Origin: Solicola gregarius
GTDB taxonomy: Bacteria; Actinomycetota; Actinomycetes; Propionibacteriales; Nocardioidaceae
Length of the DNA stretch: 64,000 nucleotides
NCBI RefSeq assembly: GCF_025790165.1
Contig: NZ_CP094970.1
Location: 496,001 to 560,000 of the forward strand
Direction: 5' to 3'
The notes beneath the pieces were generated by a model that searched no databases, was not told the origin of the DNA, and saw nothing but the letters and a program-made list of their open reading frames with translations. Positions 1,249-8,168 of the stretch are shown piece after piece. Both the position numbers and the translations under genes were made by a program. How positions within the stretch are numbered: the stretch's first letter is position 1; every line of letters starts with the position of its first letter.

Positions 1249-4200
1249 GTGACGTTCACTCGTATCGCCATCGTCAACCGCGGTGAGGCCGCCATGCGCC
1301 TCATCAACGCCGTTCGCGACATCAACGCATCGCACCTCGACGACGCACCCGAACTACGGACCATCGCGCTCTACACCGATACGGATGCGGCCGCGATGTT
1401 CGTACGAGAGGCCGACGAGACCTACCTGCTCGGCGCCGCCGCGGACCGCCCGTACCTGGACCTGGTCGTACTCGAGCGGGCGCTCGCCGACTCGAACGCC
1501 GAGGCCGTCTGGGTCGGATGGGGCTTCGTCGCGGAGGATCCGGCCTTCGCCGACCTGTGCGAACGGCTCGGTCTGGTGTTCATCGGCCCGACCTCGGCCG
1601 CGATGCGCCAGCTCGGCGACAAGATCGGCTCGAAGCTGATCGCCGAAGAGGTCGGCGTGCCCGTCGCCCCCTGGAGTCGCGGTGGAGTCGGGACCGTCGA
1701 GGACGCACTCGCCGCCGCCGATGAGATCGGCTACCCGCTGATGCTCAAGGCGACCGCCGGTGGTGGTGGCCGCGGGATCCGGATGGTCTCCGGCGCAGCA
1801 GAGCTGACCGATGCGTACCAACGTACGAGAGACGAGGCCGAGCGTGCGTTCGGAAGCAGCGTCGTCTTCCTCGAGCGCCTCGTCACCGGAGCGCGCCACG
1901 TCGAGGTGCAGCTGATCGCCGACGGCCAGGGCACGGCATGGGCGGTCGGCGTACGGGACTGCTCGGTGCAACGCCGCAACCAGAAGGTGATCGAGGAGTC
2001 CCGCTCACCGCTGCTCGACACGGAACAGACCGACGAACTGAAGGCATCCGCGGAGAGGCTCGCGCTCGCGGTCGGATACCGGGGCGCGGGAACGGTCGAG
2101 TTCCTCTACCACCCGGACGAGAAGACGTTCGCATTCCTCGAGGTCAACACCCGGCTCCAGGTCGAGCACCCGATCACGGAGGCCACCACCGGCCTGGATC
2201 TCGTCCGGCTGCAGCTCCACATCGCGCAGGGCGGCGCGCTGGAGGGCGAGCGTCCCGTCGAGAGCGGCCACGCCGTCGAGGCGCGGCTGAACGCCGAGGA
2301 CCCCGACCGCGACTTCGCGCCCGCCCCGGGACGCATCGCCCGGCTGGAGTTCCCGACCGGCCCTGGCATCCGGATCGACACCGGGGTCGCCGAGAGGGAC
2401 ACCATCGCGGCGGACTTCGACTCGATGATCGCGAAGGTGATCGCGGTCGGTCGCGACCGCGACGAGGCGCTGGCCCGGCTACGCCGGGCGATGGGCGCCA
2501 CGACGGTGGTGATCGAGGGCGGCACCACCAACAAGACGTTCATCCTCGAGCTGCTCTCGCAGCCCGAGGTGGTCTCCGGCACGCCCGCCTGGGCGAGCAC
2601 CGGCTGGATCGACGCCGCCCGCCAGGACGGCCGCCTGGTCGCCGCACGGCACTCGGGGATCGCCCTTGCGGCCGCCGCGATCGAGGCGTACGAGGAGCAG
2701 GAGCGCTACGAGATCGCCCGGCTCCTGGAGACGGCCCGCGGTGGCCGGCCGCAGCTGCAGCACGAGATCGGCCGGGCCATCGACCTGAAGCTGCGCGGCG
2801 CGTCCTACCGGGTCACCGTGATCCAGTCCGGGCCGGATCGTTACCACGTCACGGTCGCTGCGGGCGCCGAGGAACGAACCATCGAGGCGAGCATCGACCG
2901 CCTCGACGACTTCCACGCTCGGATGACCGTGGCGGGACACGCGTACCGACTGGTGACCGCCAGCCACGGTCCCCTGCAGCTCGTCGAGGTCGACGGGGTC
3001 ACGCATCGCGTCAGTCGCGACGAGGGCGGTGTGCTCCGCGCGCAGGCGCCCGCGCTCGTGGTGGCAACACCGGTCGCCGTCGGCGACCACGTCGCCGCTG
3101 GGGCGCCCGTGCTCGTCCTGGAGTCGATGAAGATGGAGACGGTGCTGAATGCCCCGTTCGCCGCGCGGGTCAAGGAGGTCCTCGTACGCACCGGCAGCCA
3201 GGTCGAGACCGGCGCCGCGCTCGCCCGGCTGGAGCCGAGCGGCGACGAGCCCGCGGCCCGCGACGAGCACACCGGCGGACTCGCGACGCTCGAGCTGGCA
3301 CCGTCTCCCGAGCCGTCCTCGGCCGACCAACGACTCGACCGCGCTCGTGCGGACCTCCGTGCGCTGCTCCTCGGGTACGACGTCGACCCCGAGGGCCGAG
3401 GCGAAGTGCTGCGCCGCTACCTGCGCGCACGCGATGAGCTGGCCGTCGACGAGGAGCACCACGTGCACGAGGAGCTGGCGCTGCTCGGGCTGTTCGCCGA
3501 TATCGCCGAGCTGGGCCGCAACCGGCCGGCCGGCGAGGACCTGCACACCGAGCTGCGAGTGCACAGCTCGCGCGAACACCTGCACACGTACCTGCAGAGC
3601 CTCGACGCCGATCGGGTCGGGTTGCCGGCCCAGTTCCGAGAGCGACTGGCGCGGGTCCTCGCCCACTACGGCATTACCGACCTGGAGCGTTCACCCGCGC
3701 TGGAGGAAGCCGTCTTCCGCGTCTTCATCACCCAACAGCTCCCCGCGACCGACGTCGACATCGCGATCGCGCTCCTCCAGCGCTGGTTGCGTAGCCCGGC
3801 GCCGAGCAACGAACTCGCAGCCGCCGCGCGCGGCCTGCTGGAACGCATGGTCCGCGCGACACAGCTGCGGTACCCGGTGGTCGGCGACCTGGCCCGGAGT
3901 ATCCGGTTCCGTTGGTTCGACCAGCCGCTCGTCGACGCCGAGCGACTCACGGTGCTCGGCGGCGTCGCCGACGAGGTGGAGGCGCTGGCGGCCGACCCGA
4001 CGGCCGAGGACCGCGACGAGCGGATCGCGGCCCTGACGGCGATCCCTGAGCAGCTGGTCGGCTTCCTCGCCGCCCGGCTCGAGACCGGGCTGCCCGCGGA
4101 GGAACCTCTCCTCGAGGTGCTGGTCCGCCGGCACTACCTCGAGCACGACCTCCACGACGTACGCACGCACCATGCGGACGGTCGGCCACTCGTCGTCGCG

Positions 4201-6774
4201 CAGTACTCGCTCGACGACAAGGGCCCGACCCATCTGGTCACCACGATCGGGACCTCCGCGGAGCTGGAACGCCCGGCCGGCACCCTGGACCGCGCCATCT
4301 CGGCCCAGCTCAGCACGGACCGAGCCACGGTCGTCGAGCTCTATCTGCACGCTCCGGACGTCGCCGAGCAGGGGGATGCGACGAGCGCCCGGATCCGGGA
4401 CGCGGTCGCCGCGCTCGACGTCGCCCCGCGGGTCCGTCGAGTCACCGTTGCGGTGGCGCCCGGCGACGGACCTGTCGGCTACTACACGTACCGGCCGAAC
4501 GCCGATGGCGTGTACGAGGAGGACACTCTGGTCCGCGGCATGCACCCGATGGTCGGCCGACGCCTCAACCTGTGGCGGCTGAGCGAGTTCGACGTCACTC
4601 GTCTCGAGGCGCCGGCCGATGTGCTGCTGTACGAATGCGTGGCGAGGGAGAACTCCCGCGACCGCCGGCTCGTGGCGATGGCACAGGTACGCCAGCTCGC
4701 CGTCGTACGCGACGAGGAGGGCAAGGTCACCGGCCTCCCCCACGCCGAGCGCGCGGTCGAGAACTGCCTCGAGGCCATCCGCCGGGTACGCACGTCGCGC
4801 GGTTCGGCCGGCAGCAAGCTGGACCGGAACCACGTCTGGGTGACGGTCTGGCCCGTGGTCGAGGCCGATGTCGACCAGCTGACCTCGCTGCAGGCGAAGA
4901 TCACCCCCCTCAGCGAGGGGGCCGGCATCGAGGAGGTGTTGGCACAGGGGCGGGTCGCCGGCCCGGACGGCAGCCTTCAGCCACTGGCGATCCGTTTCCA
5001 CTCACGACCGGGCGCCGGTGTCGTGGCCGATCTCGAGCCGCCGCCAACCGAGCCGCTGCGGCCGCTGGACGACTACGCGAGCAAGGTCCTGCGCGCGCGT
5101 CGCCGTGGGCTCGTTTACCCGTACGAGCTCGAATCGGTGCTGGCCGCCGGAGGCACCCTCGTCGAGTACGACCTCGACGACACGGGACGCCTCGTCGAGG
5201 TCGATCGCCGGCGTGGCCTGAACAAGGCGGGCATCCTGGTTGCGGTCGTGTCGACTCCGACGCCGCTGTACCCGGACGGCATCAAGCGGGTGGTGCTCTG
5301 TGGTGATCCGACCATGGCGCTCGGCGCCGTCTCGGAGCCGGAGTGCGCCCGCATCATCGCCGCCATCGACCTGGCCGAACGGATGCAGGTGCCGATCGAG
5401 TGGTTCGCAATCTCGGCGGGAGCCCGGATCTCGATGGACTCCGGTACCGAGAACATGGACTGGGTCGCCGCGGCGCTGAAGCGGATCGTGGAATTCACCC
5501 AGGCCGGCGGCGAGATCAACGTCGTGGTCGCGGGCATCAACGTCGGAGCTCAGCCGTACTGGAACGCCGAGGCCACGATGTTGATGCACACCCGCGGGAT
5601 CTTGGTGATGACGCCGGACTCCGCGATGGTTCTGACCGGCAAACAGTCGCTGGACTTCTCCGGCGGTGTCTCCGCCGAGGACAACTTCGGCATCGGCGGG
5701 TACGACCGGGTGATGGGACCCAATGGCCAGGCACAGTACTGGGCGCCCGACCTCGCCGGCGCCCTGTCGATCCTGATGAAGCACTACGAGCACACGTACG
5801 TCGAACCGGGCGAGCCCGGTCCGCGCCGCGCGCCCACCGGCGACCCGGCTGACCGGGACGTGTCGTCGTATCCGCACGCGAGCGCCGACAGCGACTTCAC
5901 CACCGTCGGCGAGATCTTCGCGGCCGACCGCAACCCGGACCGCAAGAAGGCCTTCGACATCCGTACCGTCATGCGGGCGGTCGCGGACCAGGACAGCGCC
6001 ATGCTCGAACGCTGGGCCGGCATGGCCGATGCGGACACGGCAGTCGTCTGCGACGCCCACCTGGCGGGCCACTCCGTCGCCCTGCTCGGCATCGAATCAC
6101 GCCCGGTGGCCCGCGGCGGCTTCCCGCCAACCGACGGGCCGAGCACGTACACCGCAGGAACCCTGTTCCCCCGCTCGTCGAAGAAGGTCGCGCGGGCGAT
6201 CAACGCCGCCTCGGGCAATCGTCCCGTGGTCGTACTGGCCAACCTGTCGGGGTTCGACGGGTCACCGGACTCGATGCGCAACCTGCAGCTGGAGTACGGC
6301 GCCGAGATCGGCCGCGCGATCGTGAACTTCGACGGTCCGATCGTCTTCTGCGTCATCTCGCGTTACCACGGCGGTGCCTTCGTAGTGTTCTCCAAGCGCC
6401 TGAATCCGGATCTGACCGTGCTCGCCATCGAGGGCTCGTACGCGTCCGTACTGGGAGGTGCGCCGGCGGCCGCGGTGGTGTTCTCCTCCGAGGTCGACAA
6501 GCGCGCCGCCGCGGACCCTCGGGTCGCCGAGCTGGAGGGTCGGATCGAGGATGCGGCCGGCGCGGAGCGGGCCCGGCTGGGCGTCGAGCTCGCCGACCTC
6601 CGGGCCTCGCTGCGTGCGGACAAGATCTCCGAGGTCGCCGCGGAGTTCGACGCGATCCACAACATCCACCGCGCGGTCGACGTCGGTTCGGTCGACGAAG
6701 TGATCACACCGGCGCGACTGCGTCCGAGGATCATCGAGGTATTGGATCGCTACCTGCGCGGTGCTGGGGGCTGA
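1249..6774 (+). CDS. Single-chain biotin-dependent acyl-CoA carboxylase (BC-BCCP-central region-CT fusion)
   Basis: A 1841-residue multidomain carboxylase that should carry out ATP- and biotin-dependent carboxylation of a short acyl-CoA (acetyl- or propionyl-CoA). The N-terminal biotin carboxylase spans about 1-450, with ATP-grasp lysine 167, a glycine-rich loop (GGGGRG) just after it and EVNTRLQVEHP near 297. The biotinyl domain holds ESMKMET with biotinyl lysine 628. A long alpha-helical stretch (about 690-1180) without recognised catalytic motifs links to the carboxyltransferase (about 1270-1841), which has ARISMDSGTENMDW near 1393 and QSLDFSGGVSAEDN. This BC-BCCP-central-CT order resembles eukaryotic acetyl-CoA carboxylase; most actinobacteria use separate AccA/AccD subunits. 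The GTG start is chosen because it directly precedes FTRIAIVNRGEAA, the normal beginning of a biotin carboxylase, and no clear ribosome site is seen. Its substrate is not resolved. Confidence 0.92.
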   Translation: MTFTRIAIVNRGEAAMRLINAVRDINASHLDDAPELRTIALYTDTDAAAMFVREADETYLLGAAADRPYLDLVVLERALADSNAEAVWVGWGFVAEDPAFADLCERLGLVFIGPTSAAMRQLGDKIGSKLIAEEVGVPVAPWSRGGVGTVEDALAAADEIGYPLMLKATAGGGGRGIRMVSGAAELTDAYQRTRDEAERAFGSSVVFLERLVTGARHVEVQLIADGQGTAWAVGVRDCSVQRRNQKVIEESRSPLLDTEQTDELKASAERLALAVGYRGAGTVEFLYHPDEKTFAFLEVNTRLQVEHPITEATTGLDLVRLQLHIAQGGALEGERPVESGHAVEARLNAEDPDRDFAPAPGRIARLEFPTGPGIRIDTGVAERDTIAADFDSMIAKVIAVGRDRDEALARLRRAMGATTVVIEGGTTNKTFILELLSQPEVVSGTPAWASTGWIDAARQDGRLVAARHSGIALAAAAIEAYEEQERYEIARLLETARGGRPQLQHEIGRAIDLKLRGASYRVTVIQSGPDRYHVTVAAGAEERTIEASIDRLDDFHARMTVAGHAYRLVTASHGPLQLVEVDGVTHRVSRDEGGVLRAQAPALVVATPVAVGDHVAAGAPVLVLESMKMETVLNAPFAARVKEVLVRTGSQVETGAALARLEPSGDEPAARDEHTGGLATLELAPSPEPSSADQRLDRARADLRALLLGYDVDPEGRGEVLRRYLRARDELAVDEEHHVHEELALLGLFADIAELGRNRPAGEDLHTELRVHSSREHLHTYLQSLDADRVGLPAQFRERLARVLAHYGITDLERSPALEEAVFRVFITQQLPATDVDIAIALLQRWLRSPAPSNELAAAARGLLERMVRATQLRYPVVGDLARSIRFRWFDQPLVDAERLTVLGGVADEVEALAADPTAEDRDERIAALTAIPEQLVGFLAARLETGLPAEEPLLEVLVRRHYLEHDLHDVRTHHADGRPLVVAQYSLDDKGPTHLVTTIGTSAELERPAGTLDRAISAQLSTDRATVVELYLHAPDVAEQGDATSARIRDAVAALDVAPRVRRVTVAVAPGDGPVGYYTYRPNADGVYEEDTLVRGMHPMVGRRLNLWRLSEFDVTRLEAPADVLLYECVARENSRDRRLVAMAQVRQLAVVRDEEGKVTGLPHAERAVENCLEAIRRVRTSRGSAGSKLDRNHVWVTVWPVVEADVDQLTSLQAKITPLSEGAGIEEVLAQGRVAGPDGSLQPLAIRFHSRPGAGVVADLEPPPTEPLRPLDDYASKVLRARRRGLVYPYELESVLAAGGTLVEYDLDDTGRLVEVDRRRGLNKAGILVAVVSTPTPLYPDGIKRVVLCGDPTMALGAVSEPECARIIAAIDLAERMQVPIEWFAISAGARISMDSGTENMDWVAAALKRIVEFTQAGGEINVVVAGINVGAQPYWNAEATMLMHTRGILVMTPDSAMVLTGKQSLDFSGGVSAEDNFGIGGYDRVMGPNGQAQYWAPDLAGALSILMKHYEHTYVEPGEPGPRRAPTGDPADRDVSSYPHASADSDFTTVGEIFAADRNPDRKKAFDIRTVMRAVADQDSAMLERWAGMADADTAVVCDAHLAGHSVALLGIESRPVARGGFPPTDGPSTYTAGTLFPRSSKKVARAINAASGNRPVVVLANLSGFDGSPDSMRNLQLEYGAEIGRAIVNFDGPIVFCVISRYHGGAFVVFSKRLNPDLTVLAIEGSYASVLGGAPAAAVVFSSEVDKRAAADPRVAELEGRIEDAAGAERARLGVELADLRASLRADKISEVAAEFDAIHNIHRAVDVGSVDEVITPARLRPRIIEVLDRYLRGAGG

Positions 6775-7198: not shown

Positions 7199-7228
7199 TA
7201 ACATTTGCATCACAAGTGACATTTGCCT
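7199..7228. promoter_or_regulatory. Possible control site: ACATTTGC direct repeat around a TCAC-AA-GTGA palindrome
   Basis: In the divergent gap between the STAS gene and the small membrane-protein gene, ACATTTGC occurs twice with an 18-base period, and the interval holds a short palindrome (TCAC-AA-GTGA). This part is much richer in A and T than its surroundings. It is a plausible promoter or operator, but no regulator is identified. Confidence 0.3.
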
Positions 7229-7592: not shown

Positions 7593-8168
7593 ATGGTGAA
7601 CCTGACCCGCATCTACACCCGCACCGGCGACGGCGGCCGCACCAGGCTCGGCGACATGAGCGAGACCAGCAAGGTCGACCTACGCCTGCTCGCGTACGCC
7701 GACGTCGACGAGGCGAACAGCCAGATCGGGTACGCGCTTTCGTTCGGCGAGCTCGATCGGGACGTCGTCGACGTGCTCACGCACGTACAGAACGACCTCT
7801 TCGACGTCGGCGCCGACCTGTCCACCCCGGTGGTTGCCGACCCCGAGTACCCACCATTGCGGGTCGAGGACGACTACGTCCACCGCCTCGAGCAGTGGTG
7901 TGACCACTACCTCGAGCCGTTGCCGAAGCTGCGGTCGTTCATCCTGCCCGGCGGCTCGCGGAGCGCGTCGGTGCTGCACGTCGCCCGCACGGTCGTGCGC
8001 CGCGCCGAGCGCTCGGCGTGGGCTGCGTACGCCGAGCACGGCGAGACCATGAACGAGGCGGCGATCCGCTACCTGAACCGGCTCAGCGACCTGCTGTTCA
8101 TCCTGGCGCGGTACGCGAACCGCGAGCAGGGCGACGTGCTGTGGGTGCCCGGCGGCGAGCGTACCTAG
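7593..8168 (+). CDS. Cob(I)alamin adenosyltransferase, PduO type
   Basis: A 191-residue ATP:cob(I)alamin adenosyltransferase of the PduO family, which transfers adenosyl from ATP to the reduced cobalt to make coenzyme B12. The N-terminal ATP-binding motif TRTGDGGRTRLGD (about 8-20) is intact, as are the later RTVVRRAERSAWA and NRLSDLLFILAR motifs of the active site. Adenosylcobalamin would serve enzymes such as methylmalonyl-CoA mutase; none is in the window, although valine-type catabolism (about 50-55 kb) feeds that route. In mycobacteria a gene of this family also lies just beyond the atp operon, which fits the synteny here. Confidence 0.92.
   Translation: MVNLTRIYTRTGDGGRTRLGDMSETSKVDLRLLAYADVDEANSQIGYALSFGELDRDVVDVLTHVQNDLFDVGADLSTPVVADPEYPPLRVEDDYVHRLEQWCDHYLEPLPKLRSFILPGGSRSASVLHVARTVVRRAERSAWAAYAEHGETMNEAAIRYLNRLSDLLFILARYANREQGDVLWVPGGERT

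Follow-up and report, generated by a model that had tools for sequence, protein, structure and literature searches.

The closest described system is SACE_4237 of Saccharopolyspora erythraea, characterised in 2019 by Livieri et al. (PMC6491548). It is an active homodimer of about 400 kDa with a chain of about 200 kDa, and its kcat/Km values are 0.85 per s per mM for acetyl-CoA and 0.52 per s per mM for propionyl-CoA, and it is inactive on palmitoyl-CoA. SACE_4237 rescues the E. coli accB(Ts) strain L8 and is essential for growth of S. erythraea unless oleic acid is supplied. The same source compared the central region by secondary structure, found in its trees that BC and CT group with eukaryotic ACC, listed orthologues in eight actinobacterial families, Nocardioidaceae included, and proposed that eukaryotic ACC could descend from the bacterial family (PMC6491548). 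Our literature search found no second paper characterising a family of the SACE_4237 type and no paper on multidomain acetyl-CoA carboxylase naming Nocardioides.

We analysed a stretch of 64,000 nucleotides of the Solicola gregarius genome (NZ_CP094970.1, positions 496,001 to 560,000), hereafter the window, in which a single-chain acyl-CoA carboxylase gene lies at 1249-6774 on the + strand. It starts with GTG and translates without internal stop into 1841 residues. On the same strand, Pfam models, each over its cut-off, delimit a BC domain at residues 3-455 (1255-2613; Biotin_carb_N 3-119, CPSase_L_D2 124-332, Biotin_carb_C 344-455), a BCCP domain at residues 604-661 (3058-3231; Biotin_lipoyl), an ACC_central match at residues 1020-1215 (4306-4893) and a CT domain at residues 1343-1831 (5275-6741; Carboxyl_trans). 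The order BC, BCCP, central region and CT within one chain, as the earlier note had read it, is thus borne out by the translation and by Pfam. Between BC and BCCP the alignment leaves a linker of residues 456-603 (2614-3057), partly aligned to 5i6i, which may be the positional counterpart of the BT domain of ACC. Over the whole protein, the urea carboxylase model (NCBIfam TIGR02712) reaches 478 bits against a cut-off of 1303.85 and the pyruvate carboxylase model (NF009554) 475.1 bits against 965, and both identities were rejected.

The motifs of BC, BCCP and CT are known as catalytic from the biotin carboxylase literature, and they are well kept here. The biotin lysine K628 (codon 3130-3132) sits in ESMKMET and is conserved in all 74 aligned rows, and the residues of GGGGRGI (171-177) and EVNTRLQVEH (298-307) in the BC domain are conserved in 73-74 of the 74. 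Three CT motifs (1481-1490, 1665-1673 and 1705-1713) are conserved in 72-73 rows, the locus L088 being broken there. With its biotin lysine and catalytic motifs intact, the enzyme should be active.

The central region, which had previously been described as having no recognised motif, does contain one: PF08326 (ACC_central), at 60.7 bits, clears its cut-off of 23.2. A profile built from the window protein and 23 loci chosen for spread, and covering residues 664-1290 (3238-5118, + strand), matched 11 solved chains up to E 0.01, all of them acetyl-CoA carboxylases. The structure prediction that the earlier note had proposed for the centre was run on the same residues and gave an AlphaFold2 model with a mean pLDDT of 82.1 and a pTM of 0.77, which matches the central domains of eukaryotic ACC. 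All 30 Foldseek matches of this model at E <= 0.001 are acetyl-CoA carboxylase entries, and the next match follows at 7.2e-3 with a probability of 0.25. The best Z in VIA-align was obtained with human ACC1 (8xl2_C; Z 30.5, rmsd 5.3, 502 residues, model residues 27-616), closely followed by yeast AC3-AC5 (5cs4_A; Z 30.1, rmsd 3.4, 354 residues, model residues 235-615). The match to AC1-AC2 (5cs0_B) is weaker, with Z 10.6 over 125 residues, a value that unrelated helical repeats can also attain. Across its 15 best fold alignments, the centre shows 14-19% identity. From the fold and profile matches we conclude that the centre corresponds to the eukaryotic central domain in compact form, with a predicted fold like AC1-AC5. 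The window protein shares with the ACCs of yeast, Chaetomium and human (ACC1) the domain order and, by prediction, the AC1-AC5 fold in the centre; it has 1841 residues, whereas the long ACC chains compared have 2211-2407.

The CT domain also sides with eukaryotic ACC. For the searches we used residues 1290-1841, and a profile was built from the window and 21 loci chosen for spread. Among 38 solved sequences up to E 0.001, the 20 best matches to this profile were ACC chains (3.3e-25 to 9.8e-20), whereas the best beta subunit reached 5.9e-9. These 20 chains are of eukaryotic origin, in part as judged from structure titles. The window CT alone likewise placed 20 ACC chains ahead of the first beta subunit, among 43 matches up to 0.01. 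The beta subunit L089 of the same genome, run as a control, gave PccB-type chains at 5.4e-281, with ACC appearing no earlier than 3.3e-12. When the other four CTs of the genome are included in a CT tree, a branch with support 99/97 has 14 bacterial single-chain rows together with two fungal ACCs on one side; several branches are very long, so that the tree shows the grouping and not its direction. Forcing the fungal CTs to join the genome's three beta subunits gave a p-AU of 0.031. The CT phylogeny proposed in the earlier note therefore groups this domain with fungal ACC and not with the beta subunits of its own genome.

For BC, plain score and trees differ in what they show. By score the closest matches of the domain are alpha subunits (9.5e-107), with the eukaryotic ACC 8xkz behind them (6.8e-80, the last among the best 60 of 76 matches). 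In a tree that adds six other BC domains, in which L119 was reoriented and L120 left out after failing the motif check, the single-chain BCs join Chaetomium ACC with support 98/94, a result that carries a long-branch warning (treekit). A first BC tree contained L119 as a misread row with two stops; there the single-chain rows and Chaetomium ACC did not form one group, and constraining them to do so cost a log-likelihood of 0.01 (p-AU 0.498). Our CT tree and the BC tree with L119 reoriented agree with those described by Livieri et al. (PMC6491548).

We then considered how widely the family occurs. In a contig scan of one genome per species, 417 pattern matches were found, of which 373 encode a relative at E <= 1e-3, a number that may include other biotin enzymes. 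Judged by title, every one of the best 80 of these 373 comes from actinobacteria. Of the 80, 77 match the window protein from residue 5 or earlier to residue 1827 or later, L051, L053 and L071 matching over less. The alignment took 73 of the 80 loci, the other seven being without a start motif in the chosen frame; identity to the window protein is 61.8-74.8% in 72 of the 73 rows, and the broken L088 has 56.7% over 1221 columns. A quick tree of 71 loci and the window (L053 and L088 dropped) placed the window protein in a clade with 12 loci at support 99. Eight of these 12 belong to Propionibacteriaceae, Nocardioides or other Propionibacteriales, and the rest to Jiangella and Flexivirga. Nocardioides immobilis has two single-chain carboxylase copies (L009 and L018), which lie on different branches of the tree.

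A full-length match was present in 9 of the 20 nearest genomes, the own genome included; for the 13 that belong to the same family, some of which are incomplete, the number is 5. Across the phylum, the central profile detected 30 of 396 sampled genomes, namely the own genome, a further 9 from its class and 20 from other classes; the Pfam ACC_central model detected 29 of the 396 and none of 14 named control genomes. The family is thus spread over many groups but patchy, and patchiness even inside one family fits repeated loss or transfer. The families named for SACE_4237 in 2019 are, as far as is known, all of class Actinomycetes, and matches outside the window's class would extend that list.

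Taken together, the window protein is a real but ordinary protein, a further member of an already characterised family, and we assign it, with a probability of roughly 0.9, to the actinobacterial homodimeric multidomain acetyl-/propionyl-CoA carboxylases of the SACE_4237 type. This assignment is based on the domains, the motifs, the predicted fold of the centre and the kinship. Like SACE_4237, the window protein is a single chain of about 200 kDa in which BC and BCCP are followed by an ACC-type central region and CT, and its CT is kin to eukaryotic ACC. Activity, dimer and essentiality are known for SACE_4237. Because the SACE_4237 sequence itself was not located (its published forward primer matched none of 22 Saccharopolyspora genomes at zero mismatches), orthology rests on the copy in the congener S. 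elongata together with the families listed in PMC6491548. That copy (L079/L117) aligns to window residues 2-1837 at 63%, is the single full-length match in its genome and falls in the other main group of the quick tree. The view of the protein as a eukaryote-like single-chain acyl-CoA carboxylase, distinct from the alpha/beta enzymes and from LCC, is supported. Its portrayal as unusual and of unknown substrate type has to be given up, since SACE_4237 has the same architecture and its activity is described (PMC6491548). The earlier note had also allowed that the same order of domains might prove common and characterised, and this holds in substance, both through that paper and through the 77 of 80 loci, yet the family is patchy at 30 of 396 genomes.

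By analogy with SACE_4237 and with what is generally known of biotin carboxylases, the window protein may be expected to form a dimer in which BC would carboxylate biotin on K628 using ATP and bicarbonate, and BCCP would swing the carboxybiotin to CT. CT would then pass the carboxyl group to acetyl-CoA, giving malonyl-CoA for fatty acid synthesis, and propionyl-CoA would be carboxylated with similar efficiency to methylmalonyl-CoA. The central region, with a predicted fold like AC1-AC5 in eukaryotic ACC, would be a non-catalytic scaffold. The most likely function of the enzyme is to supply malonyl-CoA for fatty acids, and judged by S. erythraea it is probably the essential ACC of this genome.

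The same enzyme might instead be a second, non-essential carboxylase here, for example for propionyl-CoA or for a special supply linked to the transporter, with an alpha/beta complex making malonyl-CoA. The genome indeed contains five CTs, and with four besides that of the window the single-chain enzyme need not be the essential carboxylase. L089 is PccB-like, and L090 (with L003) and L091 (with L005) each adjoin a BC gene. L092 (G000:C1:655109-656506, + strand, outside the window) carries AccD-like and AccA-like CT halves in one chain. Relatives also live without the enzyme, as just 5 of the 13 same-family genomes, some of them incomplete, have a full-length match. However, S. erythraea needs SACE_4237 despite several other carboxylase CTs (PMC6491548).

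The gene neighbourhood bears on the same alternative. The carboxylase starts 26 bases past the end of an OppF-like ABC ATPase gene (329-1222, + strand; PF00005 and PF08352; 79% identical in the congener), whose actual start probably lies downstream of position 329, and the end of an OppD-like ATPase gene of an oligopeptide-type ABC transporter (3-389, + strand; PF08352) precedes it. The genes upstream in the same direction encode a C45-type acyltransferase/hydrolase, a solute-binding protein, permeases and the two ABC ATPases. Beyond the transporter lies a methylmalonyl-CoA-mutase-type gene, and further away a two-part 3-hydroxybutyryl-CoA dehydrogenase and NucS. The mutase-type gene encodes a single chain of 660 aa with a B12 domain and is found at G000:C1 about 487782-489764 (- strand; L121:783-2765). 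Downstream of the carboxylase is a gene for a cob(I)yrinic acid a,c-diamide adenosyltransferase of the PduO type (7593-8168, + strand; PF01923, TIGR00636), an enzyme that makes adenosylcobalamin. Several acyl-CoA genes are near the carboxylase, and we draw no functional link from that.

The Solicola congener (G396) keeps this order at 74-93% identity, including the adenosyltransferase downstream and the mutase upstream, which speaks for a link. However, when eight neighbours were used as queries (one a 116-residue frame, a putative gene), all matched the congener, and none was found next to the carboxylase in L158, L159 and L160, which come from three further members of the family. Five window neighbours were further sought in the 80 loci at E up to 1e-8, within flanks of at most 6 kb that are shorter or absent in some. 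The OppD/OppF-like pair occurred in one locus, L049 of Nocardioides, where it ends more than 2 kb upstream; in 11 loci the remaining matches to OppF are to ABC ATPases at 30-37%. Within those flanks none of the 80 loci yielded a match to the adenosyltransferase, to the small gene at 7216 or to atpC, and no transporter genes of the window turned up next to the S. elongata copy. Crude ORF clustering of 82 loci (the 80, the window and the congener) gave no non-carboxylase gene common to more than 10, the 10 loci with the most widely common neighbour being Kribbella. A functional tie to the transporter was rejected, as the arrangement is kept in one congener and not in the other loci seen, the partial case of L049 apart. 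We consider a secondary role of the carboxylase in this genome doubtful.

A bolder reading joins two claims: that the carboxylase is no housekeeping enzyme in the genus, being expressed with the transporter operon (C45 acyltransferase/hydrolase, solute-binding protein, permeases and OppD/F) and supplying malonyl- or methylmalonyl-CoA for an imported acylated substrate, and that the family is an old bacterial one from which eukaryotic ACC could descend, as proposed in PMC6491548, 20 of the 30 positives being in other classes of the phylum. We regard this combination as improbable.

Alpha/beta acyl-CoA carboxylases of the PccB/AccD5 type perform the chemistry predicted for the window protein. 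The BC-BCCP half of the window protein scores close to their alpha subunits, its CT is weakly like their beta subunits, and it does not have the separate PccB/AccD-type CT chain that is their hallmark. These enzymes consist of two or three chains (PMC6491548).

An LCC-type long-chain acyl-CoA carboxylase is very unlikely. LCC is likewise a single chain with BC, BCCP and CT known from actinobacteria, and is cited in the 2019 paper as a hexamer acting on long acyl chains (PMC6491548). Its structure 4rcn has 1093 residues versus 1841, with no room for a central region of some 600 residues such as that bearing ACC_central in the window protein. CT aligns to the C-terminal half of 4rcn, but 4rcn is absent both from the 38 CT-profile matches up to E 0.001, which ACC chains lead, and from the 43 matches of the window CT up to 0.01; SACE_4237, moreover, is inactive on palmitoyl-CoA (PMC6491548). 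The CT aligned to 4rcn_A was that of L089, and it covers residues 562-1037 of the 1093. The earlier description of LCC as shorter and of another order stands for the length, and is doubtful for the order: CT is C-terminal in 4rcn, whereas PMC6491548 states the opposite domain order for LCC.

Two frames are broken elsewhere in the assembly. The OppC frame of the upstream operon breaks midway and runs into OppD, giving an apparent chain of 614 residues (about 494545-496389; L121:7546-9390), whereas OppC and OppD are in different frames in the congener. In one alpha-subunit gene (BC-BCCP; G000:C1 about 3217062-3218870, - strand; L002:1054-2862), about 18 kb from the PccB-like gene, BC and BCCP are in different reading frames, and in the congener (L157) BCCP continues in frame with what precedes it; this is either a sequencing error or a real frameshift. 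Both breaks hint at indel errors in the assembly, but the view that the long carboxylase frame is itself an artefact of assembly or of fusion between neighbouring genes is refuted by the congener, which has the same frame at 85% identity across residues 1-1838, and by the 77 of 80 kept loci (the best 80 of 373 relatives) that match nearly end to end; the BC, biotin and CT motifs are conserved as well.

The SACE_4237-type family bears on the origin of the one-piece eukaryotic ACC, an argument already published (PMC6491548). To this our analysis adds a confidently predicted central fold that matches solved ACC, members in other classes, and a patchy presence, at 5 of 13 genomes, within the family of the organism itself.
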